From the IMG/VR virus record IMGVR_UViG_3300031963_000217, positions 1 to 51,118 of that record: a DNA stretch of 51,118 nucleotides; one strand, 5' to 3'. Numbering within the stretch: position 1 is the first letter of the stretch; every line of letters starts with the position of its first letter. Shown here one piece after another: positions 11,147 through 49,784 of this stretch. This DNA comes from a virus. The notes below the pieces were generated by a model. That model did not search any database. It was given only the letters and a program-made list of their open reading frames with translations, and was not told where the DNA came from. The position numbers were made by a program, and so were the translations under genes.

Positions 11147-11154
11147 TATTTATG
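11147..11154 (-). promoter_or_regulatory. Late promoter box fused to stop codon
   Basis: CATAAATA on the minus strand containing the TAA stop of 11150-13576; 15 bases before the ATG at 11132. Confidence 0.6.
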
Positions 11155-13576
11155 ATGGGTAGGAGATGATGACGATACCGGAACCACCAGTTCCACCACT
11201 TCTATAGTATGGATATCCTCCAGCGCCCCCGCCGCCACCGGTGTTTGCTTGACCTACTGTAGCAAGTGTTCCAGAACCTGTAGATCCATTTCCACCACCA
11301 CCGCCGCCACCGGTGCCACCAGTTCCGTTATAAGCTCCACCACCACCGCCGCCAGAATAAGTTAATGTTGTGCCAGAAATGGTAAAAGCAAGACCACTTC
11401 CACCATTTCCACCAGTTCCACCAGAAGCATTACTTCCGGCATTGCCAGCGCCGCCGCCGCCACCGCCTGAACCATAACCATCTCCACCGCCACTATTGCT
11501 TCCAGTTCCACCAGGATTTCCCCATCCTAACGGTGGGGAGGCAGTTACAGGAGCACCACCAGTGGCACCTGATCCAGTTCCTCCTGGTTGAATTGGTCCA
11601 CCAGGTCCAGGAGCTCTACCGCCTCCACCACCACAACCACCAGGAAGACCTGTACTTCCATAGTTTGGAGAACCTGCTCCACCACCAGTAGCAGTTACTG
11701 TAGTTGAAAGTGATAAAGAACTATTTGATCCATTCGTCGCCTGAATGCCCATATCTCCATTTCCACCTTGCCCACCTCCACCAACTGTTACGGTGTATTG
11801 TCCTGGAGATGCTGAAACTGGTGCCGAAGTCGCATATTGAATTGCTCCTGCCCCACCACCACCAGAAATAGTACCCCCGCCACCGCCGCCACCAGCGATA
11901 ACCAAATAATCAATAGAAGTTAAAGATGGGCTTAATATGCTAAAGGTGCCAGAACCTAAAAATGTATGAATTGTTTTTGTTGGAGAATATGAAACTGTAC
12001 CGCCACTTGCTTTTGCTGCGATTAAACCTTGTTGATATCGAATTACAACAACACCAGATGCACCAGACTTTGAAACATTAGGAGATGCATGTGATGCTCC
12101 ACCACCGCCCCCACCTGTGTTAGCAGTTCCATCATTTCCTGCTCCTGCTGGTGATCCACCACTACCACCTCCACCAGGTCCACCAGATCCCCCTTGACCT
12201 GCTACATTTGCTCCACCACCACCGCCACCTGCATAAGTCACTGATGTTCCTGTAAGACTATATGATAATCCGTCACCACCAACGCCACCATATGTAGATG
12301 GACCAGGACCAGAAGTTCCCATTGGATTACCTTGTCTTCCTGCTCCGCCACCACCTCCAAAAGCAGCATAAACGGATGGATTATGTTGACCATATCCACC
12401 AGGATTTCCTTGACCAGAAGTTCCAGAACCACCACCAATAGATGGAATCGTAGCAACTGCGCCGCCGCCGCCGCCAGAACCTCCAGGATGTCCAGCAGCT
12501 GCTGGTGCTGAAGGTGAAAATTCTCCTCCACCACCGCCACTAATTGCAGTAATAGTTGTTATATCAGGTCTTGATATTGTTGATGGAGTTCCATCATTTG
12601 GTGTTCCTGCTGCTGGGAGTCCTGCACCACCACTACCAATTGTAACTGAATAAGAACCTGGTGTAATTGGATATGAAGAGTTGTACAATAAACCACCAGC
12701 ACCACCTCCGCCACCACCTCCAGAGGGACCAGCACCGCCACCACCGCCGCCAGCGACTACCAAATATTCAATAACTGCGTCTGTTCTAGAAGAAGTAACG
12801 TTAAATGTTCCAGAAGAAGTGAAACGATGTGCTCTATAAAAAGCACCATTTAGTTCATATTCACTTATAGTTCCACCTGTTGCCTGAATATAAGGCGATC
12901 CAACATTTGCCCATCCCTGAATATTTCCATTGTAAACTTGAACTGCCCCTTCTGTCGCATTGTAAATTATAGTTCCAGTTGCAGTATTGATGCCAGCATT
13001 TCTACCAGTGGTGCTTGTGGTTCCTAAACCAACCAAATTATTTCTTATAAACGCATTTCCAACAGTGATACTTGAAGCTGAACCAACTTGAACTCCATTA
13101 GTCGCAGTAATGATACCAGAAGATTGAAGTCCTTGTGACTGTAAAACTCCAAAGACAGTCGCACCGTATCCTGTGGTTTCCAGTTCTTTTGAGTTATCAT
13201 AATAAAGTTCTGCTGCTCCATTTGTATTAAATACGGCAAGTAATTCACTAAAAGCAGCATTGTATAATATTATGCCATTACTTCCAGCAATAGCTAAATT
13301 TCCAGTTCCAGAATCACTAATTATACTGTTGGACCCATCGTGATAAATCTGCAGATCATTACTATCACCTAAAAGAATTTTATCATTATCACCAAGATTC
13401 ACATTACTTTGGAATGTGGAGACGCCTGATACATTTAGTGCTGTGGAATTGACATTCCCGTAGTTTGGTGCTGTGATCGAAGTCGCAGTAATCACACCAG
13501 TGATATTAATGCCCGTCAAAGGTGCGGTGCTTGAAATACCAGAACTGGTGATTTGTGTAAGACGGTCAAGTGCCAT
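11150..13576 (-). CDS. Glycine-rich adhesin with two Gly-rich modules
   Basis: An 808-aa virion protein. Residues 1-250 are fibre repeats, including DNDKILLGDSNDLQIYHDGS and the module TTGRNAGINTATGTIIYNAT shared by all three glycine-rich adhesins here. Two Gly-rich domains follow (about residues 268-510 and 555-808). Each opens with EYLVVAGGGGGG or DYLVIAGGGGGG, is full of GGGGGxGG runs, and closes with SGVVVIRYQ or SGIVIISYPS. This matches the phage glycine-rich domain; in T4-type gp38 adhesins Gly-rich stretches form polyglycine helices that display receptor-binding loops. Paralogues: 14428-16032 and 18670-20805. Confidence 0.88.
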   Translation of the reverse strand: MALDRLTQITSSGISSTAPLTGINITGVITATSITAPNYGNVNSTALNVSGVSTFQSNVNLGDNDKILLGDSNDLQIYHDGSNSIISDSGTGNLAIAGSNGIILYNAAFSELLAVFNTNGAAELYYDNSKELETTGYGATVFGVLQSQGLQSSGIITATNGVQVGSASSITVGNAFIRNNLVGLGTTSTTGRNAGINTATGTIIYNATEGAVQVYNGNIQGWANVGSPYIQATGGTISEYELNGAFYRAHRFTSSGTFNVTSSRTDAVIEYLVVAGGGGGGAGPSGGGGGGGAGGLLYNSSYPITPGSYSVTIGSGGAGLPAAGTPNDGTPSTISRPDITTITAISGGGGGEFSPSAPAAAGHPGGSGGGGGAVATIPSIGGGSGTSGQGNPGGYGQHNPSVYAAFGGGGGAGRQGNPMGTSGPGPSTYGGVGGDGLSYSLTGTSVTYAGGGGGGANVAGQGGSGGPGGGGSGGSPAGAGNDGTANTGGGGGGASHASPNVSKSGASGVVVIRYQQGLIAAKASGGTVSYSPTKTIHTFLGSGTFSILSPSLTSIDYLVIAGGGGGGGTISGGGGAGAIQYATSAPVSASPGQYTVTVGGGGQGGNGDMGIQATNGSNSSLSLSTTVTATGGGAGSPNYGSTGLPGGCGGGGGRAPGPGGPIQPGGTGSGATGGAPVTASPPLGWGNPGGTGSNSGGGDGYGSGGGGGGAGNAGSNASGGTGGNGGSGLAFTISGTTLTYSGGGGGGAYNGTGGTGGGGGGGNGSTGSGTLATVGQANTGGGGGAGGYPYYRSGGTGGSGIVIISYPS

Positions 13577-14427: not shown

Positions 14428-16032
14428 TCAAACTCTATATCTAATAACCACTATTCCACTACCACCTTGCCCTGCCGATCCACCAGCAACCCCAGCACCA
14501 CCTCCGCCACCAGTATTTGCAACTGCATTAGAACCACTAGTTGGTCCTGCAACTCTAGCACCACCAGCGCCGCCGCCGCCAGGTCCACCACTACCGCCTG
14601 GTCCAGGACTCCAAATAGAACCACCACCACCGCCAGCATATAGACCAGTAGGTCCAATCGCAGATGATGTTGGGGAAGGGACAGCAGGACCAATTAACAA
14701 GGAACTAAATGTGGAGTATGATAATCCAGCACCTCCTGGAGAAGGAGTGCCATTTGGACCAGCACCATTTGTTCCTGCAGCTCCAGCGCCGCCACCGCCG
14801 CCGCCAGGACCACCAGGTCCAGCTCCGCCGGCAGCGGACCCGCCAGGATTTCCCCACCCAGCTGGCGGTGAAGCATTTCCAGCAGTTCCACCAGGTGATC
14901 CAGTTGCTGGACCAGCAAATTGTACTGTAGGTCCACCACATCCAGCACCACCACCCGATCCACCAGGTCCTCCTGGTTGATTTCCACTGTCTGATCCACC
15001 ACCGCCTCCTCCAGGAGCCGTTACTAAACCTCCAAGAGAAGAAGAACCTCCAGTAGTTCCTCTTGAGCCAGCCACTGCAGGCCCACCAGCGCCTCCAGCA
15101 CCAATTGTTACTGGATACGTTGCATTTGAAACTAAAACCGAAGTTGAATATACTAAAGCGCCAGCGCCGCCGCCGCCGTTGCCATCAAAGCTTGGAGCAC
15201 CATTTCCTCCCCCACCTCCGCCACCGACACACAAAACTTCAACTGTGTTACTTCCAGTAACAACAAAGCTCGCAGGACTTGATGCAAATACATGATAAGT
15301 ATATCCATTATTTGATACAGTAGAAGGAATTATTGTCCCTCCACTAGCACTAAATGCTGACTTAATTGTTTGCCATCCCAAAATAGGTCCAAAATATCCT
15401 TCAATTGATGTTGTGGTATCATTATAAACCAAAGTTCCAGTCGCAGTTCCAACACCAGCATTTCTACCAGTTGTTGTTGTTTGACCTAGACCAATTTGAT
15501 TATTTCTTATAAAACTTTGTCCAACAATAATACTTGTTGTAGCACCAACTTGAATACCACCAGAAAATGTAGAGAGTCCAGTAGCATTTACATTACCAGT
15601 TACATTACCACTAAATCCACCAGTCGCTGTTACAACTCCAACAACAGAAGCACCAGCACCAACTACAAGACCGCTTCGTGCGGTAATAACACCAACAGAA
15701 TCAACGTTAGTTACATCTTCATAGGTCACTGTTCCAGCAACACTAATGTTTCCACTAAAAGATGCACTCGCAGCAGTGATAGTGCCGACAGTAATGTTGG
15801 GTGTTCCGCTTAACCCCGTTGCGTTTCCTGTTACATTTCCTGTTAGATTCCCTACAAAACCACTAGAAGAAGTTGTAACACCACTAACAACAAGACTATT
15901 CGTTCTTACATTTGCTGTTGATGCCGCACCAGTAATATTGGGAGTATCGATACTTCCAGTGACTACAATGTTTTGTAAAGTAACTGTCCCAGTGCTTCCA
16001 ATACCAGCGGCAGCAATCTTGGTAAATGCCAT
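14428..16032 (-). CDS. Glycine-rich adhesin with one Gly-rich module
   Basis: A 534-aa protein. The N-terminal 130 residues (GNLTGNVTGNATGLSGTPNI, then TVTYEDVTNVDSVGVITARS) are nearly identical to the start of the 558-aa fibre at 23665-25341. Next comes the TTGRNAGVGTATGTLVYNDT module, then one Gly-rich domain from about residue 262, opening EVLCVGGGGGGG and closing GSGIVVIRYRV. Within it, Gly-Pro steps are frequent (GGAGPGGPGGGGGGAG). Probable receptor-binding adhesin. It is the first gene after three oxygenase genes. Confidence 0.88.
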   Translation of the reverse strand: MAFTKIAAAGIGSTGTVTLQNIVVTGSIDTPNITGAASTANVRTNSLVVSGVTTSSSGFVGNLTGNVTGNATGLSGTPNITVGTITAASASFSGNISVAGTVTYEDVTNVDSVGVITARSGLVVGAGASVVGVVTATGGFSGNVTGNVNATGLSTFSGGIQVGATTSIIVGQSFIRNNQIGLGQTTTTGRNAGVGTATGTLVYNDTTTSIEGYFGPILGWQTIKSAFSASGGTIIPSTVSNNGYTYHVFASSPASFVVTGSNTVEVLCVGGGGGGGNGAPSFDGNGGGGAGALVYSTSVLVSNATYPVTIGAGGAGGPAVAGSRGTTGGSSSLGGLVTAPGGGGGGSDSGNQPGGPGGSGGGAGCGGPTVQFAGPATGSPGGTAGNASPPAGWGNPGGSAAGGAGPGGPGGGGGGAGAAGTNGAGPNGTPSPGGAGLSYSTFSSLLIGPAVPSPTSSAIGPTGLYAGGGGGSIWSPGPGGSGGPGGGGAGGARVAGPTSGSNAVANTGGGGGAGVAGGSAGQGGSGIVVIRYRV

Positions 16033-18669: not shown

Positions 18670-20805
18670 TTATGATGGGTAAGCGATGATGACGATACCG
18701 GAACCACCGTTAGCTCCTTGTTGACTTCCTGTTGGAGTAACAGGTGGACCAACATACGCGCCACCACCACCTCCACCACCGAGATTAACATTTCCATTGG
18801 ATGCTACCCCAGTTGTTGGTCCACCAGCGCCACCTCCACCAGATCCCCCAGCACCTCCACTAGTGGGTGATGAATTTGCACCATCAGCAGATCCTCCTCC
18901 ACCTCCACCACCGGCATATGTTATTGAAGAACCATTAATACTAGATGCTAAACCAGATCCACCAATTCCACCAGCAGGTGGGTTACTTCCAGAACCACCA
19001 GCACCTCCACCACCAGATCCAACATATGGAGAAGCTGATGGTGATCCGGGTGATGCTCCTGGTGGACAGAATCCACCATTATTGCCTTGCGATGGGACAG
19101 TTGTTGCCGTGGGTTGATTAGTTCCATCACCTCTATTTCCAGTTCCCGCAGTGCTTTGGAAACGAGCAGCGCCTCCACCACCAGATCCACCATTTTTACC
19201 TGCGTTATTATCTCCTGCTCCACCTCCACCACCACCTTGTGATGTTATTGTTGAAAATATAGAAGCACTTCCAGGAGATCCATCTGAGGCACCACCAGCA
19301 CCTGTTCCTCCAGTTACAGCGCCACCCCCTCCGCCAGATCCAACAGTGATTGAATATGAACCAGGAGATACGGAAAAACCACTTCCTGTTCTCATTCCGC
19401 CAGCTCCACCGCCGCCGGCAAAACGAGCGCCACCTCCGCCGCCACCGCCAACTACAAGGTAGTCAACGGAACTTAAAGAAGGATCGGTGACTGTAAAGGT
19501 CGCTGATGAAGTAAAGGTGTGAATAGTCTTACCATCAGCATATGAAACTGTTCCACCAGTCGCTTTGACTGACTGTTGACCGACCTGATAACGGAGGATG
19601 ACGATACCGGAACCGCCAGCAGAACCTGATCCTGGAGATGGTTGTGCCCCTCCTCCTCCGCCGCCGCCGCCAGTGTTTGCTGTTGCAGAGGCGGAAGCAC
19701 TAGATGGAGACGAAGCACCTGGACCACCAGTAGCTCCACCACCAGATCCACCTGCTCCACCAGTTCCAGCAGGACCAGGTTGTCCGCTTGCTACTTGTTG
19801 ACCACCGCCGCCGCCGCCGCCGGCATAAAAGACTGCTGTTCCGGAAATAGATGAAGGTAGTCCAGTTCCTCCTGCACCACCAAAATTAAGACTACCACCT
19901 GCACCAGGTGCTCCTGCACCACCACCTCCTCCTCCACCTCCACCAACTGTTGTTGGAGCAAGAGTGCCTGCACCTTGACCACCAGGATTTCCTTGCCCAG
20001 GAGTGCCTGTTCCTGCGGGCAATCCTCTTCCAAATCCACCACCACCTGATGCGCCAGATGTGCCTCCAGGGCTGCCTCCAGGGATGCCCTCACCACCAAG
20101 AGAAACGATAGCAGAAAAACCAACATTTGACGAATTAAATGTTGAACTATTACCAGGAACATTTTGTGGAGCACCTCCTGCTCCAACAATGATTGAATAT
20201 GCTCCAGGAGAATTACTAACAGTTACACCAATACCAGTTCTGAAACCGCCTGCACCGCCGCCTCCCCCTGCACCATTACCATTATCACCATTAGTTCCAC
20301 CGCCTCCACCACCAACTACAAGATACTCGACAGTATTATTATTAGCAGGAGCAGTTAAAACTTTAAAAGTATTAGATGCAGTAAACGTATGCGCTTTCCA
20401 AAAAACTCCACCACTATAATAAGAAGTTACAATACCACCCGTTGCCTGAATAAAGTTATCTGATGTTGGTTTCCAAGTTGTTCCGTCATAAACTTCTACA
20501 ATACCCACTGTTGAATTGTATATAATAGTTCCAACAGCAGTTCCAACACCAGCATTACGTCCAGTGGTCGTTGTAGCGCCTAGACCGACACCAGTACTAT
20601 TAATAAACTTATCACCTACCGTAATACTAGTCTGTATTCCAGATATTTGACCAGTTACATTACCCGTTAAGTTTCCAGTGATACTCGTCGCACTCAAAAT
20701 ACCGACCGTTGTGATACCTGAAAGAACCACACCAGTATCACTGAATGTTACGGTGCTTAATCCACTTCGGTTTTGTATTTGATTGACACGAATTTCAGAA
20801 GCCAT
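18670..20805 (-). CDS. Glycine-rich adhesin with two Gly-rich modules
   Basis: A 711-aa protein with a short repeat stalk (GNLTGNVTGQISG), the TTGRNAGVGTAVGTIIYNST module and then two Gly-rich domains, about residues 160-408 and 448-711. They open EYLVVGGGGGG and DYLVVGGGGGGG and close GGSGIVILRYQ and GGSGIVIIAYPS. The last 40 bases of the gene nearly match those of the 808-aa adhesin, pointing to duplication or recombination. A receptor-binding role is inferred from the phage glycine-rich domain family. Confidence 0.88.
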   Translation of the reverse strand: MASEIRVNQIQNRSGLSTVTFSDTGVVLSGITTVGILSATSITGNLTGNVTGQISGIQTSITVGDKFINSTGVGLGATTTTGRNAGVGTAVGTIIYNSTVGIVEVYDGTTWKPTSDNFIQATGGIVTSYYSGGVFWKAHTFTASNTFKVLTAPANNNTVEYLVVGGGGGGTNGDNGNGAGGGGGAGGFRTGIGVTVSNSPGAYSIIVGAGGAPQNVPGNSSTFNSSNVGFSAIVSLGGEGIPGGSPGGTSGASGGGGFGRGLPAGTGTPGQGNPGGQGAGTLAPTTVGGGGGGGGGAGAPGAGGSLNFGGAGGTGLPSSISGTAVFYAGGGGGGGQQVASGQPGPAGTGGAGGSGGGATGGPGASSPSSASASATANTGGGGGGGGAQPSPGSGSAGGSGIVILRYQVGQQSVKATGGTVSYADGKTIHTFTSSATFTVTDPSLSSVDYLVVGGGGGGGARFAGGGGAGGMRTGSGFSVSPGSYSITVGSGGGGGAVTGGTGAGGASDGSPGSASIFSTITSQGGGGGGAGDNNAGKNGGSGGGGAARFQSTAGTGNRGDGTNQPTATTVPSQGNNGGFCPPGASPGSPSASPYVGSGGGGAGGSGSNPPAGGIGGSGLASSINGSSITYAGGGGGGGSADGANSSPTSGGAGGSGGGGAGGPTTGVASNGNVNLGGGGGGGAYVGPPVTPTGSQQGANGGSGIVIIAYPS

Positions 20806-36110: not shown

Positions 36111-37444
36111 TTAACCGATTGTGGGAGCAGTAAGAGCAACTGGAGTTGCTTCTGCTGCAGCAAGGTCAAGAGGGAAGTTGTGGGCGTTTCTTTCATGCCG
36201 TTATTGTTATCGTAAAGACTCTTTATTCTTTACTTCTCTATGTCGCCATAGAGTCCAGACTATCTCTTCATCCGTTCTGGATGCTGGGCATTCGTGGGTA
36301 GATTATTGTTGGAACTCACTACCTAGTCGTTAGACCTGCCGAAGAACCTATGTCCTCTTCGGATTGGTACGGGATTGTCTACTTGAGAGTTTCCCCGTTT
36401 AACCCAGTTTCGTCAAGAAACATTCCTGTTTCAGGGTGACTACATTTAAGAAATCACTTCCATGCCGAGTCCAGCACGGTTGAGAACATCAGCCCAAGTG
36501 TTGATAACTTTACCCTGACTATCAACGATAGATTGGTTAAAGTTAAAACCATTCAGGTTAAATGCCATCGTGGAAACACCAAGAGCGGTGAACCAGATGC
36601 CTACAACAGGCCAAGCAGCAAGGAAGAAGTGCAGCGAACGGGAGTTATTAAAGGAAGCATATTGGAAAATAAGGCGTCCGAAATAACCGTGAGCAGCAAC
36701 GATGTTATAAGTCTCTTCTTCTTGACCAAACTTGTAACCATAGTTCTGCGACTCAGACTCAGTGGTTTCACGAACCAGCGAGGAAGTCACAAGAGAACCG
36801 TGCATTGCACTAAACAGAGAACCACCGAAGACACCAGCAACTCCAAGCATGTGGAAGGGGTGCATCAGAATGTTGTGCTCTGCCTGGAACACAAGCATGT
36901 AGTTGAAAGTACCAGAGATACCCAGAGGCATCGCATCAGAGAAAGAACCTTGACCGAAAGGATAGACCAGGAATACAGCAGATGCAGCAGCAACAGGTGC
37001 GCTATAAGCAACACAGATCCAAGGACGCATACCCAGGCGGTAGGAAAGTTCCCATTCACGACCCATATAGGCGTAGATACCAATCAGGAAGTGGAACACA
37101 ACCAGTTGGAAAGGACCACCGTTGTAGAGCCACTCATCTAGAGAAGCAGCTTCCCAGATAGGATAGAAGTGCAGTCCAATAGCATTGGACGAAGGAATCA
37201 CAGCACCAGAGATGATGTTGTTTCCGTACATAAGAGAACCAGCAACGGGTTCACGAATACCATCGATGTCCACAGGAGGGGCAGCGATAAAGGCAACGAT
37301 GAAGCAGATGGTAGCAGCAAGCAGACAAGGAATCATCAGAACGCCGAACCAACCCACATAGAGGCGGTTATCGGTGCTGGTGACCCACTGGCAAAACTGT
37401 TCCCAAGTATTTGATTGTCGTTGTTGAGCGATTGAAGCAGTCAT
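36111..37444 (-). CDS. psbA: Photosystem II D1 protein, split by a group I intron
   Basis: Two exons, 37444-36453 and 36198-36111, join to encode a 359-aa D1. Exon 1 runs from [20 protein letters not shown] to NRAGLGMEV plus AT of the next codon; read alone it would stop after IS. Exon 2 restores [14 protein letters not shown] and ends TAPTIG. D1 binds the manganese cluster, P680, pheophytin and QB; the acceptor motifs [20 protein letters not shown] and [15 protein letters not shown] are intact. Cyanophage D1 replaces the fast-turning host D1. The leader is about 160 nt with hairpins; the promoter is at 37615-37643. Confidence 0.97.
36199..36452 (-). other. Group I intron in psbA, 254 nt, no internal gene
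   Basis: The split lies after AT of the ATG codon in GMEV-M-HERN. Supports: the 5' exon end GTGAT pairs with an internal guide GTCAC (36440-36436), giving the obligatory U-G pair; GCAT at the 3' exon pairs with ATGT (36445-36442) as P10; P7 strands GACTA (36328-36324) and TAGTC within AGATAGTC (36265-36258); P4-like ACGGG/CCCGT (36398-36394 with 36373-36369); intron ends in G. S-PM2 psbA carries a group I intron near its 3' end too. Confidence 0.93.
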
Positions 37445-39434: not shown

Positions 39435-40234
39435 GGTGTCTGTGAGGATTCGGTAATACGACCCAAATAAGGATCATAATTCATCAAATCGTCTATCTTC
39501 ATATCATGACCCTGCTGCTCCCAAAATTGCAGAAGTCCGTCATGACTTGCTCTGTGAAAAACATCAATGTGCTCCGGATGAATTGAAGACCCCAATTCAA
39601 TTCGATAAAGAAAAATAGGAATCGAATACGTATTTCCAGAATTATAAACCAAATCATCAGCAACTGCTCTAGGTTTTACGCCATTATCAAGTTTATACTT
39701 ATCATCACGAACGTGAAACTTAAGGAGTTTTTCTGCGTGATGACGAGTAATCATATATGCAGCAGTAGAGAAATCATTGACGAATCTCTTGTGCAACTTA
39801 ACGTGCAAATCTCCAGTGCAGATAATTGCAAGTTGCACTACATCCCAATCATAAGGAATCTTGGAAACAAAATCCGCCCAAGTGAAATCCCAAAATCTTG
39901 CAAGTTGAAGATCAACATCATCTTCCATAATGATTGCATATGGAGAGTCAGAGGTTTCATACCAATGCTTAATTGCCTTTAGATGAGAAGTTGTGCAACC
40001 AATCTCCCCAGAAGTCATTGTGTCTGGGTATCTACCTTTAATGATATCTCCCAAGTCATCATCACGACCATCATAAGCAGAGATGTGAGTATAATTCTCA
40101 ATCTCCCAATACTTAAATTGGTCCTCCATATATTGTTTTCTTTCTGGTTGACCATCTAAATTCAAGTAATAGATTGGTCCAATATTTTTAAGTTTATATG
40201 CTGATTTGTTTTTGTCCATCACATTCTCATCCAT
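39431..40234 (-). CDS. Glycosyltransferase family 25 (LPS-type)
   Basis: A 267-aa GT25-like enzyme: YYLNLDGQPERKQYMEDQF at the N-terminus, GEIGCTTSHLKAIKHWYE, the acidic AIIMEDDVDL metal site, and a hydrophobic QLAIICTGD strand. GT25 enzymes add galactose or glucose to lipopolysaccharide in bacteria. Starts at 40234 (overlapping the gene before by 16 bases) or at the second Met, 40219; the choice is uncertain. Its target is not known. It is the last gene of the leftward sugar operon. Confidence 0.88.
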   Translation of the reverse strand: MDENVMDKNKSAYKLKNIGPIYYLNLDGQPERKQYMEDQFKYWEIENYTHISAYDGRDDDLGDIIKGRYPDTMTSGEIGCTTSHLKAIKHWYETSDSPYAIIMEDDVDLQLARFWDFTWADFVSKIPYDWDVVQLAIICTGDLHVKLHKRFVNDFSTAAYMITRHHAEKLLKFHVRDDKYKLDNGVKPRAVADDLVYNSGNTYSIPIFLYRIELGSSIHPEHIDVFHRASHDGLLQFWEQQGHDMKIDDLMNYDPYLGRITESSQTP

Positions 40235-41025
40235 CTTTCTGGAATTAAATCTTTAGTGTTTTTATCTTTACAGGTTTCCCCAAACCAATTTATAGGTGCA
40301 ACGACGTGGTTAGAATTAGACAACCAAGCACCCCACCAGGAGAATGAGGAATTAGCAATAATATGATGTTTGCACAGGGACATTAGACACAGGTCAACAT
40401 ACTGGTCTCCAGATTCAGAAACCATAAAACGCTCATCTGAAAATACCTCCTGCTCTTTACACCATTCTGGTTCATCAGAAAAAATAATGACTGGAAGACT
40501 AGTATCAAAATTCTTCAATGCTTCTTCATAATAATTCAAGTCAAGAGCAGTGTGATTTGGATTTTGAAGGTAGTCTGTGCGACGAATATGAAGACTGATT
40601 GCATCACCAACAGACCCCACCATTTCTTTGCAAGGTTCTAGAATCTCATCCTTGAAAGAAAAGTCAACCCGAATCTCATCTTCAATATGTGCGAAATATT
40701 TTTCTGACTGAAAAAATCCAGCAAGAGTAATTTCATCCGGACACATATTGAAGAGAATCTCATCAAAGTGAAAATGCCTTTCTTCTGCTACTGGAGCATA
40801 TCCCCTATCAAGAAGTTTAATGTTATGAGGAAGGACATACGACATCTTAAATGGATAGAAGATTTCAATCTTCAAATCAAACCCATAAGGGTCCTTAACA
40901 ACTTGACTATGATTTGGAATACAAAAATCATATCCTCGATTGCGGGCAATACCTCTTAAAGAGGCATACTGAAACATTTGATTTCCTAATCTGCCCAGTC
41001 TACCAAGATGATTAAACGCCAGCAT
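40219..41025 (-). CDS. Alpha-1,2-fucosyltransferase (GT11), copy A
   Basis: A 268-aa GT11 enzyme with GRLGNQMFQYASLRGIA at the N-terminus (nucleotide-sugar site), DAISLHIRRTDYLQNPN and the C-terminal SSFSWWGAWLS. It would transfer L-fucose from GDP-fucose to a galactose or similar acceptor; GDP-fucose is made by gmd and fcl in this cluster. A close relative is at 41829-42680. Overlaps 41012-41836 by 14 bases. Confidence 0.92.
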   Translation of the reverse strand: MLAFNHLGRLGRLGNQMFQYASLRGIARNRGYDFCIPNHSQVVKDPYGFDLKIEIFYPFKMSYVLPHNIKLLDRGYAPVAEERHFHFDEILFNMCPDEITLAGFFQSEKYFAHIEDEIRVDFSFKDEILEPCKEMVGSVGDAISLHIRRTDYLQNPNHTALDLNYYEEALKNFDTSLPVIIFSDEPEWCKEQEVFSDERFMVSESGDQYVDLCLMSLCKHHIIANSSFSWWGAWLSNSNHVVAPINWFGETCKDKNTKDLIPERWMRM

Positions 41026-41836
41026 TCAATTGTCCCCTTCTTTCTTTAACATAATTTTGGTCTTCATAGTATCTTACTATAGCATCTTTATCCAGTGTGC
41101 GAATTACCTGCCAAAGATTATGATTATCCATAAACTTTGGATTATGATAATGTGAATTAAAAGTTCTTGAGTGGTCAAAATGATAGACCACATCATTTAC
41201 TCTTCCTACATTATATCCAAGTGCCTGCAAACGATAATAATATTCACAGTCTTCAGCACCCCAAGATATGAAGTTTTCATTCCACATATAAGAGTCAATA
41301 TAAACCTGACGCTTAATCATTTGACCCCAACCCATTACAGAAGGTTGCAGTTTACAATTTGGTTGAATGACATTCAAGTCAAATTTAGATTGAATAAAAG
41401 AATCAAATAAAGAAACTGGATAATCAACTGCCCACTGATAAACACCGCAACCATAAGGGTAGACTGCATCAAATCCACCCATAATCATATTATATGCAGT
41501 TACATAACTTGATACTGGATAGACAACATCGACATCATAATTATAAACTACTTCTGTATTTGAAGCAAGAAGCAAGTCATTTAAAATTCTTGTTTTATAG
41601 AAAAACTTGTTTTCAGATTGCTCAAAGATGTGATAAAGATTTGTCGGAATATCTCCAAAGATTTTTTGAATGACTGGTAGTGCCTTGTCTTGAAAAACAG
41701 ATTGCGTATCATTCTCCTTGACAATAATGGGAGATTGTGGGAAATGGTGTGTGATATAACTGATTGAAGTGATAATGTTTTTCAGTCGGTCTTCACTTTC
41801 AATTCGACAAGGCATTAAGAATGTAAGATTATTCAT
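41012..41836 (-). CDS. Glycosyltransferase (GT2/GT7C-like)
   Basis: A 274-aa GT-A-fold enzyme. The D-x-D-like NYDVDVV follows FYKTRILNDLLLAS, and the C-terminal MWNENFISWGAEDCEYYYRL (W-G-x-E-D) is typical of galactosyl/N-acetylgalactosaminyltransferases of the GT7 C-terminal type, with YHFDHSRTF afterwards. The linkage and sugar are unknown. It is sandwiched between the two GT11 fucosyltransferases, so it may build the acceptor. Confidence 0.85.
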   Translation of the reverse strand: MNNLTFLMPCRIESEDRLKNIITSISYITHHFPQSPIIVKENDTQSVFQDKALPVIQKIFGDIPTNLYHIFEQSENKFFYKTRILNDLLLASNTEVVYNYDVDVVYPVSSYVTAYNMIMGGFDAVYPYGCGVYQWAVDYPVSLFDSFIQSKFDLNVIQPNCKLQPSVMGWGQMIKRQVYIDSYMWNENFISWGAEDCEYYYRLQALGYNVGRVNDVVYHFDHSRTFNSHYHNPKFMDNHNLWQVIRTLDKDAIVRYYEDQNYVKERRGQLNAGV

Positions 41837-42680
41837 AACTCACCTCCACCCAGTTCTCTGGCAGAAGGTCTTTCATATTGTAGTGATTATACATCGATCC
41901 AAACCAAGGATTCGGTGCGACAATCGGTTGTGTAGGATTCTCAATCAACCAGGCACCCCACCAACTCATTGTGCTGTTGGCAATAATACCACCACCACAC
42001 AGAGACATCATACACAAATCAAAGTAAGGAATCAATGCCTGCTGACGACCTTGAAGTGTATCACAAGTTTGAGGATACTTTTCAGTATATTCCGAGAGCA
42101 TAAACCTATCGCCTTGAAATAATTCCTGCTCTCCACACCATTCAATATCATCGGAGAATACAAGCACTGTAGAATTTTCATCAAAGTGAGTCAGTGCCTT
42201 CTCATAATATCCAATAGGACAGGCAGGATGTGCCTCTGGTTTGACCAGGTAATCTCCTCTCCTTACGTGAAGAAAAATCGGATTCTCAATCTCATCAATG
42301 ATTTCTTTACAAGGTTCTAGAATCTCATCTTTGAATATGTAATCTTTACGAATAATATCTTCCACATTCAAAAAATACTTTTCAGAGGTAAAGTAATCGT
42401 GAAGATTTACATTGTCTGGACACTTATCAAAAAACTCTTGGACAAAGTGAAACTCTCCCGTAGAAATACTGGGAGCATTTAAGATTCCAAAATTACTTTC
42501 CTGGACTGATTCCATCTTGAAACAATCAAAAAGACCATAATTGGAATCTCCATAACTATCTGGACGAGGAATCAACCAATCAAATCCCCGATTTTTAGCA
42601 ATACCACGAAGGGCAGCATACTGAAACATTTGATTGCCCAGACGCCCATTAGAACCTAGTCGATTATAACTTATAGTCAT
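41829..42680 (-). CDS. Alpha-1,2-fucosyltransferase (GT11), copy B
   Basis: A 283-aa GT11 enzyme: SNGRLGNQMFQYAALRGIAK, then PIFLHVRRGDYLVKPE (H-x-R-R-G-D-Y) and STMSWWGAWLIENP. It is a paralogue of 40219-41025 with larger inserts (residues about 180-210). It ends in an 8-base overlap with the next gene and begins ATGA with the gene before. Confidence 0.92.
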   Translation of the reverse strand: MTISYNRLGSNGRLGNQMFQYAALRGIAKNRGFDWLIPRPDSYGDSNYGLFDCFKMESVQESNFGILNAPSISTGEFHFVQEFFDKCPDNVNLHDYFTSEKYFLNVEDIIRKDYIFKDEILEPCKEIIDEIENPIFLHVRRGDYLVKPEAHPACPIGYYEKALTHFDENSTVLVFSDDIEWCGEQELFQGDRFMLSEYTEKYPQTCDTLQGRQQALIPYFDLCMMSLCGGGIIANSTMSWWGAWLIENPTQPIVAPNPWFGSMYNHYNMKDLLPENWVEVSYE

Positions 42681-43483
42681 TTTTTAAAATAATTCAAATA
42701 GATAAAGTCTTCAAGAATTTCATATTGCCGTACTCTCTCAAGATTATCTTTAATTGCTTCCATTTTATCATAATAAATGTCTTCTGACACATCAAACTCT
42801 TCCGTCAATGGAATGATTCCTTCAGAATTAAAATAATTGCCAATATCTGAAGATCCCATGTAAACAGGTATGGTACCCGAAGCAAAACAGTCAAGAATTT
42901 TTTCTGTAAAATAAGATTCGTAAAATCCGTTTTCAACAACTACAGAAAACATATAATCACAAAGACCCTCTTCTTTTAAACTAATCTCGTTTATTCCTCT
43001 TCCATACACATCAATCTGGTCACCAATCATTTCTAACCAACGAAGTCGAAGTCTTTGCCCCTCAGTCATTGATTTATTAGATGATATCATTGAAATCATC
43101 TTAGTTTTTTTATAAATTTTTGGTTCTTGAATCCAAAATCCTTGAGCCGGACACCACTTAAATTTTGAATCAAGTTTGAGCAATTGTTGGTTATGAGTAA
43201 AAATAACATCAAAAGTATTCAAATAATCTTGAAGATTTCTCTCCACATCTTCTACAATTCTAGACTTGATGTATTTTGATTCTAATATCCAAGCATATTT
43301 TTTTCCACCAATGGTATCATTAAATGCCTGTGATATTGTATCGTCAACGTAAAATGTTTCGCCAATAGAATTATCGCGAACCCACTCAACATATTTTGAT
43401 TCTTTACCATGCACGGAATAACCTTTGTTTCCTCCAGTGAGATGAGTAAAGGTATCTCCGACTAAATTGAATTTTCTTTTCAT
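42677..43483 (-). CDS. Alpha-1,3-fucosyltransferase-like (GT10)
   Basis: A 268-aa protein with the GT10 signature near the C-terminus: SVVVENGFYESYFTEKILDC, ASGTIPVYMGSSDIGNYF and GIIPLTEEF. GT10 transfers fucose from GDP-fucose in alpha-1,3/4 linkage. With two GT11 enzymes, it makes three fucosyltransferase candidates in a row. The start is the ATG at 43483, next to the divergent plus-strand gene. Confidence 0.8.
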   Translation of the reverse strand: MKRKFNLVGDTFTHLTGGNKGYSVHGKESKYVEWVRDNSIGETFYVDDTISQAFNDTIGGKKYAWILESKYIKSRIVEDVERNLQDYLNTFDVIFTHNQQLLKLDSKFKWCPAQGFWIQEPKIYKKTKMISMISSNKSMTEGQRLRLRWLEMIGDQIDVYGRGINEISLKEEGLCDYMFSVVVENGFYESYFTEKILDCFASGTIPVYMGSSDIGNYFNSEGIIPLTEEFDVSEDIYYDKMEAIKDNLERVRQYEILEDFIYLNYFKK

Positions 43484-44203: not shown

Positions 44204-44898
44204 AGAGAATCTGGAAGAATCTTTTGCTTGTAAAGTGAAAGATTCTTTTCATATGCATCTTTATCAGATTGATATGGAATTGCAATTTTTCCTGCTGGTA
44301 AAGAACATACTCGAATATGTCGCAAATCCTTTACCTTATATCCAAAAGCATATGCACGATATGCCATGTCTCCATCCGCATAGTAATACTGATACTCTGG
44401 ATTATACATTCCAATTTCTCTAAAAATTTTCTTTCGATATAATCCATAATTCATTACGATTTCGCCACCAGAATCTGCAACATTGCATAGACACCATCCA
44501 GAAGTATGGTCTTTTCCTTTTAACCAATCTGGGTTTTTGGTGTCTTCATAATTTCCATACTTCCAATTAAAAAGATAAAAGTCGTGATTTGATTGAAGTT
44601 CTAAAAATACTTCAGACCATTCATTACATAAAATTACATCGTCATTCCATTGGCAGATAACTTCGTGAGTTGCTGCTTGAATACCTAAATTCATAAAGTG
44701 TGGATATGAACTACGACCACCAACCTCAATTAATTTAATTCTAGGATGATTTATCTCCTTAATAAGAGAGATAGTGCCATCGGTGCTTCCACCATCAACT
44801 AATACAAGTTCTAATCTTTCATCGGCAATAACAGTATTTGCGATTAAAGTAGGAAGCATTCCCACACGATTTAAAGTGCCAGTTACAATACTAATCAT
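44191..44898 (-). CDS. Glycosyltransferase family 2
   Basis: A 235-aa GT2 enzyme: MISIVTGTLNRVGMLPTLIA, LVLVDGGSTDGTISLIKEIN, QWNDDVILCNEW (D-x-D-like) and the C-terminal YYADGDMAYRAYAFGYKVKD, with a Cys-His pair nearby. GT2 enzymes use nucleotide sugars to extend surface glycans. The ATG overlaps the TGA of the gene before (ATGA). Confidence 0.92.
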   Translation of the reverse strand: MISIVTGTLNRVGMLPTLIANTVIADERLELVLVDGGSTDGTISLIKEINHPRIKLIEVGGRSSYPHFMNLGIQAATHEVICQWNDDVILCNEWSEVFLELQSNHDFYLFNWKYGNYEDTKNPDWLKGKDHTSGWCLCNVADSGGEIVMNYGLYRKKIFREIGMYNPEYQYYYADGDMAYRAYAFGYKVKDLRHIRVCSLPAGKIAIPYQSDKDAYEKNLSLYKQKILPDSLQYL

Positions 44899-45662
44899 TT
44901 GTTTAAATAATCGATAAATTGAAAATTATCAATTCCCATAATCAATGCTAGTAAACTAACGTTCGAAAAACTATACAAAAAGTGACTACAGTTTGAAAGT
45001 AAATAAACGCTAGATAATACCTCTTCATTAATTTGAGAACGATTTGGGCAATTGTGGTGAATGGCTTGAGAGTTATCACTTATTTTAAGAGAAGAGTCGT
45101 AAATAACTCTTTCTTTGTATCTATCCAATAAAGAATCAAGATACCTTTTATCATCGGTAGCAACAAATATTTTTTCTTTTTCTACATTATCAATTGACGC
45201 AAAAATTGTTTCTAATTTTATCTCCGGAAGTTCTTCACTTTTGTCTGTGCCTCTGATTTGTATTCCTAGAGTATCATCATCAATACCCAGTTCTAATTTT
45301 TTATTTTCATATTTAATTAGATACTCATCCTTTATCTTTAGAATATTATTATAAACCAGATTTTTGATTTTTAAGTTATCTAAATTTGCAGGAGTATGTG
45401 CATTATACTGTGAATGAAAGATTTGATTTGAAAAATATCTCTCTAACCACCAAGACCCAATATCATACACATCATTTGTTTTGAGAGAAATATTATCAAA
45501 TAATGATAGCGTCTGAGATTCAGATATTTCAATATTAAAATTACCTTTATCAAGATAATGCTCCATTGCCATGTCGATGATTCCACAAACAATAGAGCAA
45601 AATCCTTTATATGAGTAATTAAATCGTGAATCAGAATATGAAATATATCCGGTTTTAGTCAA
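44895..45662 (-). CDS. Fucosyltransferase-superfamily protein (GT23/POFUT-like)
   Basis: A 255-aa protein with LGIDDDTLGIQIRGTDKSEE followed by EKIFVATDDKRYLDSLLDRY, the pattern (H/Q)-I-R-x-T-D-K then FV-AT-DD of alpha-1,6 and protein O-fucosyltransferases. The donor would be GDP-fucose. The start is TTG at 45662, ten bases after GAGG and overlapping the gene before by 8 bases. The fold match is by motif only. Confidence 0.68.
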   Translation of the reverse strand: MTKTGYISYSDSRFNYSYKGFCSIVCGIIDMAMEHYLDKGNFNIEISESQTLSLFDNISLKTNDVYDIGSWWLERYFSNQIFHSQYNAHTPANLDNLKIKNLVYNNILKIKDEYLIKYENKKLELGIDDDTLGIQIRGTDKSEELPEIKLETIFASIDNVEKEKIFVATDDKRYLDSLLDRYKERVIYDSSLKISDNSQAIHHNCPNRSQINEEVLSSVYLLSNCSHFLYSFSNVSLLALIMGIDNFQFIDYLNK

Positions 45663-46347
45663 TATTAATTACCTCATTTAATCCTTTTGAATGAATTGCA
45701 TCTGGATAATTTCTCACATACTTATGTCTGTAAATTTTTGGTTTTTTTATTTCATACGAATTGACTAAATCCAAAAATCCAGTTTGCATCATATGAATTT
45801 CTTCTGCATTTTCTAGAAGTTTGATGTAATCAAACATACCAAATTGATAGTCATTACGAATAACTTTATAATCACTCGTAACTTTACTCATATCAATATT
45901 ATATCCTCTCTTAGGATCGTCTAAAACAAAGATATATTTTTCATTATCTGGATTTAATGTTTTGCAAACTTCTTCTTCTTTTTCTAAGTCTCTATCAAAA
46001 TAAAATTCATCAAATCTAATTTGAAAATCTAATCCCGCAAGATAATAAAATGCCTCATCAAATGTCATTCTATCTAAACAACTATCAAGATTTTCAAATC
46101 CTGGTTTAAGTAAATTATTTTTAACAGTTGGATTATTCTCGACAAATAGAATTGCCTCTTCTTCCCTATCAAAAGTAAAGATTTCTAGATTATTCAAATC
46201 ACGATACATATAACTCACATTATCGTAGTAATGTGTATAGCAAAATAAGACTATATTATTATACTTTTTACAAAAATGGCGAACCATACCATTACAAATA
46301 ATATGGTCCCCCAAACCCAGGTGATGATGAATATATTTGAGTGACAT
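45655..46347 (-). CDS. Putative GT9-like glycosyltransferase
   Basis: A 230-aa protein opening MSLKYIHHHLGLGDHIICNG (G-L-G-D-H motif of nucleotide-sugar-binding GT-B-like proteins), then RHFCKKYNNIVLFCYTHYYD. The C-terminal portion has YKVIRNDYQFGMFDYIKLLE and IHMMQTGFLDLVN. It is probably a sugar transferase, but no family assignment is firm. Start ATG 46347 has GGGAG upstream; an in-frame TTG at 46356 is less likely. Confidence 0.65.
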   Translation of the reverse strand: MSLKYIHHHLGLGDHIICNGMVRHFCKKYNNIVLFCYTHYYDNVSYMYRDLNNLEIFTFDREEEAILFVENNPTVKNNLLKPGFENLDSCLDRMTFDEAFYYLAGLDFQIRFDEFYFDRDLEKEEEVCKTLNPDNEKYIFVLDDPKRGYNIDMSKVTSDYKVIRNDYQFGMFDYIKLLENAEEIHMMQTGFLDLVNSYEIKKPKIYRHKYVRNYPDAIHSKGLNEVINID

Positions 46348-46348
46348 A

Positions 46349-46693
46349 TCACTCAACTCCCTTATAAAGTTTTACAGAATCTTCACGAAGAGGTCTTCCA
46401 GTTGCAATCGCATTATCTACAAGAAGATTTACTGCTTGAACCAAACGGGGGCGTTTGATTTTGAAGCAAATGTCAATCTTACGCTTCAAATTAGCAACTT
46501 CCTCATCAGTCTCCGCTTCCTGAATTGCATCCTCCAACATCCACATACGAGTATGAAGAATTGAAAGTTTTTCAACAACCTCACCAAGATTGTCAGTTTC
46601 AATGTATTCAACGTCAGGAAGTTCTCTGCGAGAAAGAACTTCATCAATGGTTTCTTTAATACACTGGTCAATCATTTCACCAAACTTACTCAT
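46349..46693 (-). CDS. Conserved helical protein in sugar operon, 114 aa
   Basis: A 114-aa helical protein: EKLSILHTRMWMLEDAIQEA, then RKIDICFKIKRPRLVQAVN and the tail REDSVKLYKGVE. Similar small proteins occur beside glycosyltransferase genes in cyanophages and marine bacteria as hypothetical proteins. It has no catalytic motif that I recognise. Overlaps both neighbours (ATGA). Confidence 0.72.
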   Translation of the reverse strand: MSKFGEMIDQCIKETIDEVLSRRELPDVEYIETDNLGEVVEKLSILHTRMWMLEDAIQEAETDEEVANLKRKIDICFKIKRPRLVQAVNLLVDNAIATGRPLREDSVKLYKGVE

Positions 46694-47862
46694 AATTCTC
46701 CTAGAATATTTTCTAATAGATTCATATCTTTTTGAGATACAAATTGATTATTGCCGATATAAACTCCGTTCTCATGTATCAAATCTACATTTAGATTTTG
46801 TTTTTTACAAGAAATTGTATAATTTTTAAGATATGGTTGTCTTAAAAGATTCCCACCAACAACGGGTCTATATTCAATTTTATACTTATTAAATATTTCA
46901 ATAAGTTTTAATTTAGTTTCTTTTGTTTTACATATGAATGGAAAACAAAAACAACTATTACCTTTATTATACACTATTGGATAAAAATTGTCTTTGTTTT
47001 TTTCAGAAGACATTATTCTTACAAATTCTTCGTATGACCTTCTACGAGTTTCAATAAACTTATCCAATCTTTTAAGTTGAGTCAATCCAAGAACCGCACC
47101 AAATTCAGTGTTTCTAAAATTGTATCCATCACTCACAAAGAGAAAAGATTTTTCAATCTCAGGATTTTGATTCTGATAATATTCAAATTGGTCAGATGCT
47201 CTTGCCAATCCATGAGACCTTTTCATTTTCATTAGGTCATATAAATCTTTACTATTCGTAGATATCATTCCACCTTCTACTGTGGACATATGATGCCCAA
47301 AATAAAAACTAAAAGTAGATCCTAAACTATTCTTTCCTACCTTATCTCCAAGATTATCTAAACATCCATGAGATTCGCAGACATCATCAACAAACAGAGC
47401 TTCAGGGAATAATTTACGATATTCTTCTACTTGTGCAGGAATCCCCAAAAGATGTGTAACAAAAACTAATTTAATATCTGGGTGACATTTTGATATTTCT
47501 TTTAGATTTTCTAAATCAAAACTATAATTCTCAAGATTTACATCACAAAAGATGGGAGTTAGTCCTAGTTGAATAATTGGATTGATATTTGTAACCCAGG
47601 TGCAAGATGGCAATAAAACTTTATCACCACTCTTTAAACCATACTCTTCAATGATTGAAGCAACTAATAAAAAATTTGCTGTGCTTCCAGATGTTACAAA
47701 TAAAGAATACTTGCATCCCAACCATTTGGACCACTCATTTTCAAATCTCTCAACATTTTCTCCCTGAGTAAACTTGTCGGAAGTTAGTACAAATTTTGCA
47801 AGTTGAAATCTATCCCATAGAGAGATAGAATTCTTCATAAGTGGCCAGTTATAGACGGACAT
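46690..47862 (-). CDS. PLP-dependent GDP-4-keto-6-deoxymannose 3-dehydratase-like (ColD-like)
   Basis: A 390-aa DegT/AHBA-type PLP enzyme. AGGAG supports the ATG at 47862. The catalytic Lys of aminotransferases is replaced by His190 in TFSFYFGHHMSTVEGGMI, as in ColD, which has HH-x-x-T-x-EGG. Also ColD-like: FVTSGSTANFLLVASI, GYNFRNTEFGAVLGLTQLKR and YRPVVGGNLLRQ. ColD makes 3-deoxy sugars (colitose) from GDP-4-keto-6-deoxymannose, the gmd product, and gmd lies just upstream. This points to 3,6-dideoxyhexose formation, but substrate is not proven. Confidence 0.82.
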   Translation of the reverse strand: MSVYNWPLMKNSISLWDRFQLAKFVLTSDKFTQGENVERFENEWSKWLGCKYSLFVTSGSTANFLLVASIIEEYGLKSGDKVLLPSCTWVTNINPIIQLGLTPIFCDVNLENYSFDLENLKEISKCHPDIKLVFVTHLLGIPAQVEEYRKLFPEALFVDDVCESHGCLDNLGDKVGKNSLGSTFSFYFGHHMSTVEGGMISTNSKDLYDLMKMKRSHGLARASDQFEYYQNQNPEIEKSFLFVSDGYNFRNTEFGAVLGLTQLKRLDKFIETRRRSYEEFVRIMSSEKNKDNFYPIVYNKGNSCFCFPFICKTKETKLKLIEIFNKYKIEYRPVVGGNLLRQPYLKNYTISCKKQNLNVDLIHENGVYIGNNQFVSQKDMNLLENILGEL

Positions 47863-48793
47863 AATTACTCCTATTTTGAAGAAACCAGTCAACTGTTATC
47901 TTTAATCCTTCTTCCAGAGGAGTCTGTGCTTTCCAACCAAGAGAATCCATTTTAGAAGTATCTAATGCTCTTCTTGGTGTGCCATTTGGTTTTGTAGTGT
48001 CCCAAACAATTTTACCTTGATATCCAACTTCCTTTGCAACTAAGTCAGAAAGTTCTTTAATACTCACCTCTCTATTTGGTCCAATATTGATTACCTCAGG
48101 ATTCTCATAATTATTCATCAAAAATACTAACCCATCCGCAAGGTCATCCGAAAAAAGAAATTCTCTTGTTGGACTTCCATCACCAAAACAAACAACCTCA
48201 GAATCGTTATTTTCTTTCGATTGAATAAATCGGTTAATGAAACTTGGAATTACATGACATTGACTCGGAATGAAGTTATCATTAATGCCATATAGATTAT
48301 TAGGCATTACTGAAACTGTTGGGAATCCATATTGCTCAGTATATCTTTTGCACATGTAGTAACCTATAATTTTGGACATGGCATATCCATCATTAGTTGG
48401 TTCCAAAGGACCAGTCATCAGATATTCTTCTTTAATTGGAACTGGAGCATGTTTGGGATAGATGCAAGCAGACCCTAAGAAGAGAAGTTTTTTACACCCA
48501 TTACGATATGCTGCATCAATTACATTTGTTTGTATCTGAAGATTTTCACGAATAAAGTCGGCTGGTGCTACTTTATTATATCCAATACCACCGACCTTTG
48601 CTGCACCAAGAAAAACATACTCAGGTCTTTCTTCAGCAAAGAATTCATCAACATCTTTTTGAACTCTCAAATCTAAGTCTGCTCTAGAGCGAGTCAGAAG
48701 ATTTGTATAGTCATTAGCAATCAAATGCCTGCAAATTGCAGATCCAACAAGCCCTCTATGACCTGCAATAAAAATCTTAGAATTACTGTCCAT
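47849..48793 (-). CDS. fcl: GDP-L-fucose synthase (or ColC-like)
   Basis: A 314-aa SDR enzyme. ATG 48793 overlaps gmd by 11 bases. It has [20 protein letters not shown], the Ser-Cys motif [37 protein letters not shown] (Y-x-x-x-K), and [10 protein letters not shown] with the catalytic His. It epimerises and reduces GDP-4-keto-6-deoxymannose to GDP-L-fucose. ColC (GDP-colitose synthase) is a homologue and would act on the ColD product; motif reading favours Fcl but cannot exclude that. Confidence 0.92.
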
Positions 48794-49784
48794 AAATGCA
48801 CATGTCCTCAACTAATTGTTTAAAAGAAATCTTAGGTTCCCAACCTAGTTTTTCCTTTGCCTTAGTGGCATCACCCAACAAAGTCTCTACTTCAGCAGGT
48901 CGAAAATATTTAGGGTTGACTTTAACAATGGTTTTTCTCGTGTTTTTATCAATTCCAATCTCATTAAGACCTTCTCCTTCCCACACGATATTCATACCAA
49001 AATATGGAGCCGCTTCTTCTACAAATTCTTTAACAGAATACTGAACTCCCGTCGCAATTACAAAATCATCTGGTTCTTCTTGCTGCAGCATTATCCACAT
49101 TGCTTCAACAAAATCTTTAGCATGTCCCCAATCACGCTTTGCATTTAGATTGCCCAACTCAAGAATCTGCTGTTCTCCGGTAGAAATTCTTGAAAGCGCA
49201 CGAGTAATCTTACGAGTCACAAATGTTTCACCACGACGAGGAGATTCATGATTAAAAAGAATGCCCGTGCAAGCATACATTCCATAAGATTCTCTGTAGT
49301 TTTTGGTGATCCAATATCCATAAATCTTGGCACAACCATATGGCGAGCGGGGATAGAATGGAGTTGTTTCTTTTTGTGGAATCTCCTGCACCAAACCAAA
49401 CAATTCACTCGTAGATGCTTGATAGATTCTTACATGCTTTTCCATTCCCAGAAGACGCACTGCTTCAAGAACTCGGAGAGTGCCGAGAGCATCAACTTGA
49501 CCAGTATATTCTGGTGTTTCAAAAGAAACTTTTACATGACTTTGAGCGCCAAGATTATAAATTTCATCTGGTTGAACTAATTGAATCACTCTTACAAGAT
49601 TTGTAGAATCCGTAAGATCTCCATAATGCAATTTAATTTTATGATAAATGTGATCGATTCTAGATGTATTAATCGAAGATGAGCGACGAATAATACCGTG
49701 AACCTCATATCCTTTTTCTAAAAGTAACTCAGCAAGATAAGATCCATCTTGACCTGTGATGCCAGTAATAAGTGCTTTTTTCAT
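48783..49784 (-). CDS. gmd: GDP-mannose 4,6-dehydratase
   Basis: A 333-aa [23 protein letters not shown] (G-x-x-G-x-x-G), [17 protein letters not shown], the catalytic [40 protein letters not shown] (Y-x-x-x-K) and [20 protein letters not shown]. It converts GDP-mannose to GDP-4-keto-6-deoxymannose, the branch point for GDP-fucose and, via ColD, 3-deoxy sugars. ATG 49784 overlaps the TGA of the gene before; the GDP-mannose would come from the host. Confidence 0.96.

Follow-up and report, generated by a model that had tools for sequence, protein, structure and literature searches.

A candidate route to GDP-L-colitose in a cyanophage: a ColD-type enzyme beside gmd and an fcl-type gene

The locus

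The DNA considered here, IMG/VR virus record IMGVR_UViG_3300031963_000217 (a fragment of 51,118 bases, called the window below), carries three genes head to tail on its minus strand, overlapping by 14 and 11 bases: gmd, a gene for a short-chain dehydrogenase/reductase (SDR) of the Fcl type, and a gene for a ColD-like enzyme dependent on pyridoxal 5'-phosphate (PLP) (Table 1). Together they are candidates for the synthesis of GDP-linked colitose, which is fucose minus one oxygen, a rare sugar known from bacterial surface glycans. The original prediction, made from the letters of the window, had placed gmd and fcl next to the PLP enzyme, with fucosyltransferases nearby to use the product; all three genes are indeed there, gmd scoring well above its family cut-off, and Pfam matches identify fucosyltransferase-type genes in the vicinity.

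The virus is a cyanophage, because it has a complete psbA gene (photosystem II D1), adjoining the block of glycosyltransferase genes, and because the DNA matches of that block are only to Synechococcus, Prochlorococcus, other cyanophage or marine virus records. The closest match is S-SRM01, a freshwater Synechococcus phage.

The PLP enzyme

The PLP enzyme contains the motif HHMSTVEGG, whose first His is residue 190 when the frame is counted from its first ATG (a TTG start would give 46690-47892). In the phmmer alignment this residue falls on His188 of E. coli ColD, where the PDB mutants H188N and H188K show N or K; the claim that the Lys of aminotransferases is replaced here by a His, as in ColD, is thus upheld. 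By sequence, the best solved relatives are all ColD (phmmer against the PDB; 2gms, E = 2.4e-59), as against 1.4e-32 for E1 (RfbH, CDP-4-keto-6-deoxyglucose 3-dehydrase) and 5e-22 for perosamine synthase; identity to E. coli ColD is about 32%. A scan of IMG/VR viral contigs gave 80 loci with a ColD-like gene. The His is kept in 80 of 80 of these copies, in E. coli ColD and in bacterial relatives, whereas the equivalent position is occupied by Lys in the Lys-type paralogues that some of these contigs also carry (81 His-type enzymes are counted in these contigs, as L062 carries a second, RfbH-like one). The match at His190 is therefore not due to chance.

An AlphaFold model of the enzyme (pLDDT 79, pTM 0.82) has ColD as each of its 12 best Foldseek matches in the PDB (1.8e-29 to 7.5e-27), followed lower down by GDP-perosamine synthase (1.3e-23) and E1 (6.9e-23). 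The ColD residues that we take to be important for the active site (W88, D159, S183, H188, R219, F240, R250, E329 and R331) are conserved in nine of nine cases; ColD S187 is a glycine (G189) in the window enzyme. In a tree of 72 proteins, classical ColD and the group from phages and metagenome-assembled genomes are joined as sister groups at a support of 98, the Lys-type enzymes stand apart at 99, and enzymes with the RfbH motif fall outside the branch that contains ColD. Clustering with true aminotransferases, which the original prediction had named as evidence against itself, is not what this tree gives; the enzyme is on the ColD branch.

Two other identities were considered and rejected. 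Aminotransferases of the DegT family (PerA, WbpE, ArnB) are set aside by the absent catalytic Lys and by the tree. RfbH/E1 shares with the window enzyme the His in place of Lys and, as proposed for the latter, deoxygenation at C3, but has the motif HHxTMGEGG, a separate branch and a [2Fe-2S] Cys loop; when this Cys-rich loop was looked for in the window enzyme after RSHG, no Cys was found.

Sequence match, fold match, conserved residues and tree therefore make the PLP enzyme a ColD-type His enzyme, in the sister group of classical ColD. The mechanism of the His in such enzymes has been described (PMC8987622). We propose that the window enzyme is a GDP-4-keto-6-deoxymannose 3-dehydratase, for which deoxygenation at C3 is predicted.

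Distribution of the gene set

The order gmd, fcl, ColD is found in nearly all of the 80 viral loci. The cyanophage isolates ACG-2014f and S-CAM7 also carry the three in a row, with ColD 52-53% identical to that of the window; there the triplet has been annotated as nucleotide-sugar epimerases plus an aminotransferase, a hypothetical protein or a 'putative CDP-4-keto-6-deoxy-D-glucose-3-dehydrase'. Bacterial colitose loci (Vibrio, Yersinia, Colwellia and others) have the matching order gmd-colC-colD. The gene set is thus widespread in cyanophages, and the earlier view that a dideoxy sugar on a phage would be unusual was too strong. A cyanobacterial source of ColD finds no support in a genome scan that was made with two motifs only, as none of its 65 matches is cyanobacterial. 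Judged by title or the start of the abstract, none of the open literature that mentions both colitose and phage appears to concern a cyanophage.

Some loci depart from the common pattern. A Lys-type DegT enzyme (NKTITAGEGG), possibly a perosamine-type aminotransferase, lies near gmd-fcl-ColD in L017 and L018 (9543-10649 in both) and in L079 (3729-4850). In L075-L077, ColD is flanked by two other SDR genes, and a gene resembling UDP-glucose dehydrogenase is present but no Fcl, as if a different finishing route were used. In L086, binned as Crocinitomicaceae, ColD is inserted between gmd and fcl; this contig may be a misbinned phage, because its Fcl is sister, on short branches, to that of phage S-SKS1. 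The gmd of L014 (6198-7080) is seemingly about 34 residues short, or split, unlike that of its relatives.

The final enzyme

The best PDB match of the window SDR is E. coli GDP-fucose synthetase. Identity is 47% to E. coli Fcl versus 35% to ColC, and in a tree the protein lies inside the Fcl (GDP-fucose synthase) branch, the ColC clade being apart at a support of 100. Against NF047922 (GDP-fucose synthase) it scores 412 bits, below the curated cut-off of 500; the Fcl proteins of cyanophages without ColD are likewise below it, mostly at 462-474 bits. ColC is rejected as the identity of this protein, which falls outside the ColC clade and is nearer to Fcl. The original prediction had described a complete set of gmd, a ColD-like enzyme and a homologue of Fcl or ColC; the first two members stand, ColC does not, and the last step of the pathway would fall to an enzyme of the Fcl type in which residues of the active site are altered.

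This Fcl travels with ColD. In a second viral scan, for which the query was the window Fcl alone, evaluable contigs were sorted by Fcl identity: ColD was present in 46 of 46 at 70% or more and in nine of 10 at 57-70% (55 of 56 in all above 57%; the script counted 10 of 10, reduced here because L207 carries only an RfbH-type enzyme). Below 57%, four have ColD and 15 have none (4/19). ColD was sought over the whole length of 11 ColD-less contigs, one of 247 kb: nine were without it and two gave weak RfbH-like matches. Median identity of gmd to that of the window is nearly constant over the three locus classes, at 82, 81 and 83% (82% with ColD versus 83% without); that of Fcl is 74, 55 and 52%. 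At 10977-12925 in L207, a cyanophage-type contig, the RfbH-motif 3-dehydratase is followed by a thiamine pyrophosphate enzyme (PF02776), an arrangement reminiscent of a route to a yersiniose-like branched dideoxy sugar.

The window subtype of Fcl (68 sequences; positions are given in E. coli Fcl numbering) keeps the catalytic S/T107, C109, Y136, K140 and H179, whose roles in reduction and epimerization have been laid out (PMC12362431). Ala108 and Arg283, however, occur in 68 of 68, mostly with N164, I169, C178 and F202. In gammaproteobacterial Fcl without ColD, position 108 is S or T and position 283 is Lys in 30 of 30. In a reduced set, Lys283 is found in 40 of 40 Fcl rows without a C3-modifying neighbor and the pair Ala108/Arg283 in none of them, while all 39 rows with Arg283 are labelled as having such a neighbor; the label was given to the entire window subtype, so that rows such as L207 are credited too generously.

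Similar residues appear elsewhere. Loci of Clostridia (L127, L129 and L130) combine ColD and gmd with an Fcl-type SDR that has Ala108/Arg283, instead of ColC, and archaeal SDRs linked to ColD have Val108/Arg283. Among ColD-less phages, DSL-LC02 (L153) has the sole Fcl with Arg283, paired with Val108; between its gmd and fcl lies a gene for a C-methyltransferase (PF08421, PF08484; 4772-6010), hinting at a cassette for a C-methylated 6-deoxy sugar, with a change at the neighboring carbon. The enzyme family would put the methyl group on C3.

Neighboring genes and a natural cassette swap

Beyond the triplet lies a small gene whose product falls one bit short of the Pfam gathering cut-off for PF14063 (DUF4254), which is 27 bits. 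After removal of duplicates, 51 of 62 ColD loci of the window type have this gene, as against one of nine other ColD-bearing loci (among these nine, L046 may be of the window type, its Fcl being cut off) and none of 19 loci without close ColD (in two of these, L158 and L207, there is a distantly related His-type enzyme). A scan with the protein itself gave 80 loci, 69 of them with ColD in the examined stretch; of the rest, L294 has a ColD cut at the edge, six have a ColD of 51-54% elsewhere on the contig, and four are ColD-less, one of them a fragment of 100 kb and the other three short fragments. The gene was not found in isolated phages or in bacterial ColD loci. Its modelled product is three helices (pTM 0.55, a modest value), for which a fold search of the PDB gave no match at E<=0.001. 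Perhaps, and this is a guess, it is accessory to the ColD step.

Table 1. Genes of the window bearing on sugar synthesis and transfer, with psbA
Feature	Coordinates	Strand	Basis or remark
gmd, GDP-mannose 4,6-dehydratase; predicted product GDP-4-keto-6-deoxymannose	48783..49784	-	TIGR01472 566 bits, cut-off 415
fcl-type C5-epimerase/C4-reductase, proposed GDP-colitose synthase	47849..48793	-	305 bits to 1bsv
ColD-like PLP enzyme, proposed GDP-4-keto-6-deoxymannose 3-dehydratase	46690..47862	-	His190 replaces aminotransferase Lys
DUF4254-like helical protein, 114 aa	46349..46693	-	PF14063 26 bits
233-aa protein, perhaps a glycosyltransferase	45655..46356	-	No Pfam match; differs between relatives with and without ColD
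FUT8/NodZ-like, candidate colitosyl- or fucosyltransferase	44895..45662	-	PF19745 21.4 bits, under cut-off 27.6
GT10 fucosyltransferase-like gene	42677..43483	-	PF00852 37.9 bits
GT11 fucosyltransferase-like gene	41829..42680	-	PF01531 76 bits; 86% identical in ColD-less S-SRM01
Second GT11-like gene	40219..41025	-	Matches a gene of the S-SRM01 block at 85% identity
psbA, photosystem II D1	36446..37444		phrog_182, 1.6e-188

The S-SRM01 counterpart of the FUT8/NodZ-like gene is annotated as a NodZ fucosyltransferase, and two alpha-1,2-fucosyltransferases are annotated in the S-SRM01 block that holds the match to the second GT11-like gene. On the other side of the window, tail-fibre genes extend across much of the first 34 kb; amid them are three long proteins matching phrog_2295, probably paralogues (11150-13576, 14428-16032 and 18670-20805).

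Fucose cassettes of the plain gmd-fcl kind are carried by P-SSM2, S-SCSM1 and S-SRM01. Their gmd is 78-81% identical to that of the window and likewise stands upstream of a glycosyltransferase block, most of which, in S-SRM01, is shared with the window. Unlike the window they have neither ColD nor the DUF4254 gene, and their Fcl is an ordinary one with Ser108/Lys283. The isolates ACG-2014f and S-CAM7, like the window in their triplet, are unlike it in an Fcl with Lys283 and in that no DUF4254 gene was found.

S-SRM01 and the contigs L219 and L223 come close to a natural swap experiment. They share the flanking genes of the window at 74-95% (the gene at 49781, 74%; gmd, 79-86%; a GT2 gene, 82-88%; the gene at 43523, 90-95%) and have no ColD, no DUF4254 gene and an ordinary Fcl (52-54%). 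Identity also drops for the FUT8/NodZ-like gene (56-57%, versus 66-100% in relatives with ColD) and for the gene at 45655 (53-55%, versus 58-100%, median 87%). Five genes therefore vary in concert: fcl, ColD, the DUF4254 gene, the gene at 45655 and the gene for the FUT8/NodZ-like transferase. Some of this covariation could be due simply to their physical linkage.

A proposed GDP-colitose synthase of Fcl origin

The window subtype occurs almost only with ColD, has Ala108/Arg283 throughout, and is replaced by an ordinary Fcl in ColD-less relatives whose gmd is unchanged. This suggests that it is a GDP-colitose synthase evolved from phage Fcl, separately from ColC. Several observations weigh against that reading. 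ColC keeps Ser108 and Lys283, so that Ala108/Arg283 is not required for colitose synthesis; convergence with ColC on this pair was looked for and not found. Nor does ColD force the change, as Lys283 is retained in eight loci that have ColD (L069, L073, L079, L086, L208, L212, ACG-2014f and S-CAM7). On the tree, the link of Arg283 amounts to only about four changes, and a sign test on independent pairs is without power; Fisher values, which take no account of relatedness, are given no weight. The GT11 genes, nearly identical in ColD-less S-SRM01 (85-86%), do not change with the others. The association of Arg283 and Ala108 with C3-modifying neighbors is therefore suggestive rather than proven.

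Taken as a whole, the window probably carries a phage-borne route to GDP-L-colitose, composed of Gmd, a ColD-type 3-dehydratase, an Fcl-derived C5-epimerase/C4-reductase and a transferase that uses the product. That is, Gmd would convert GDP-mannose of the host to GDP-4-keto-6-deoxymannose; the ColD-like enzyme, loaded with pyridoxamine phosphate from glutamate, would take off the C3 hydroxyl, His190 serving as acid/base instead of the aminotransferase Lys; hydrolysis would then yield GDP-4-keto-3,6-dideoxymannose; the Fcl-type enzyme would invert C5 with its Cys/His pair and reduce C4 with NADPH, giving GDP-L-colitose; finally, an enzyme of the fucosyltransferase type, for which the FUT8/NodZ-like protein is the likeliest candidate, would transfer colitose to a surface glycan of the host or a glycan of the phage.

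Bacteria are known to have this pathway; what sets the phage form apart is the last enzyme, the attached small gene and the exchange as a cassette. The colitose locus of E. coli O55:H7 (gmd, ColC, ColD, GT11) agrees with the window in the first two enzyme types, in the active-site residues of ColD and in a GT11-type transferase, and many bacterial colitose loci share the order gmd-SDR-ColD; the window differs from O55:H7 in that its ColD is only 32% identical, its last SDR is of the Fcl type rather than ColC, it is phage-borne, and the DUF4254 gene is attached. A bolder proposal is made more tentatively, with slightly less than even confidence: that cyanophages have their own colitose synthase, derived from phage Fcl independently of ColC and marked by Ala108/Arg283, which is exchanged as a cassette with ColD, a transferase to match and the DUF4254 helper, and that related phages in consequence place on a surface sugars differing by one oxygen.

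Alternative readings

The most serious alternative, unlikely on present evidence, is that the pathway branches. Fcl would still make GDP-L-fucose, the ColD product being finished to a different 3,6-dideoxyhexose by another reductase of phage or host; or a single promiscuous Fcl would make both fucose and colitose. Fcl is, after all, the best family match of the window SDR, fucosyltransferase-type genes are common to ColD-less phages too, Lys283 persists in the eight ColD-bearing loci, and L075-L077 pair ColD with other SDRs in place of Fcl. Yet no other SDR adjoins ColD in the window, and the Fcl subtype tracks ColD closely while differing at active-site positions.

It is improbable that the ColD-like enzyme uses another 4-keto sugar, such as a GDP-heptose, the case in Campylobacter HS:5, or that its product becomes a 4-amino-3,4,6-trideoxy sugar through an enzyme like perosamine synthase: the constant neighbor is gmd, clearly for a GDP-mannose dehydratase, and the open reading frames of the window that were examined around the cluster include no Lys-type enzyme. 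What speaks for such routes is that C3-dehydratases for GDP-3,6-dideoxyheptose in Campylobacter are 62-67% identical to ColD (PMC10440746), and that the Lys-type DegT enzyme of L017, L018 and L079 lies close by. More improbable still is that the genes are non-functional cargo, packaging filler or passing acquisitions from which no sugar is produced. 'Stuffer DNA' has been raised as a possibility for lipopolysaccharide-type clusters of cyanophages generally (PMC3037559); here, open frames, invariant catalytic residues and a fixed gene order persist over dozens of divergent contigs, and several genes are exchanged in coordination.

Implications

If the colitose pathway is real, a switch between fucose and colitose by the swap of a short cassette would alter the surface of the host or the virion by a single oxygen atom, which might affect superinfection, grazing and competition between phages. 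The Fcl subtype would then be a case of an enzyme that shifts its specificity once a neighbor provides it with a new substrate. For the DUF4254 gene, too, a first functional context would have been gained.

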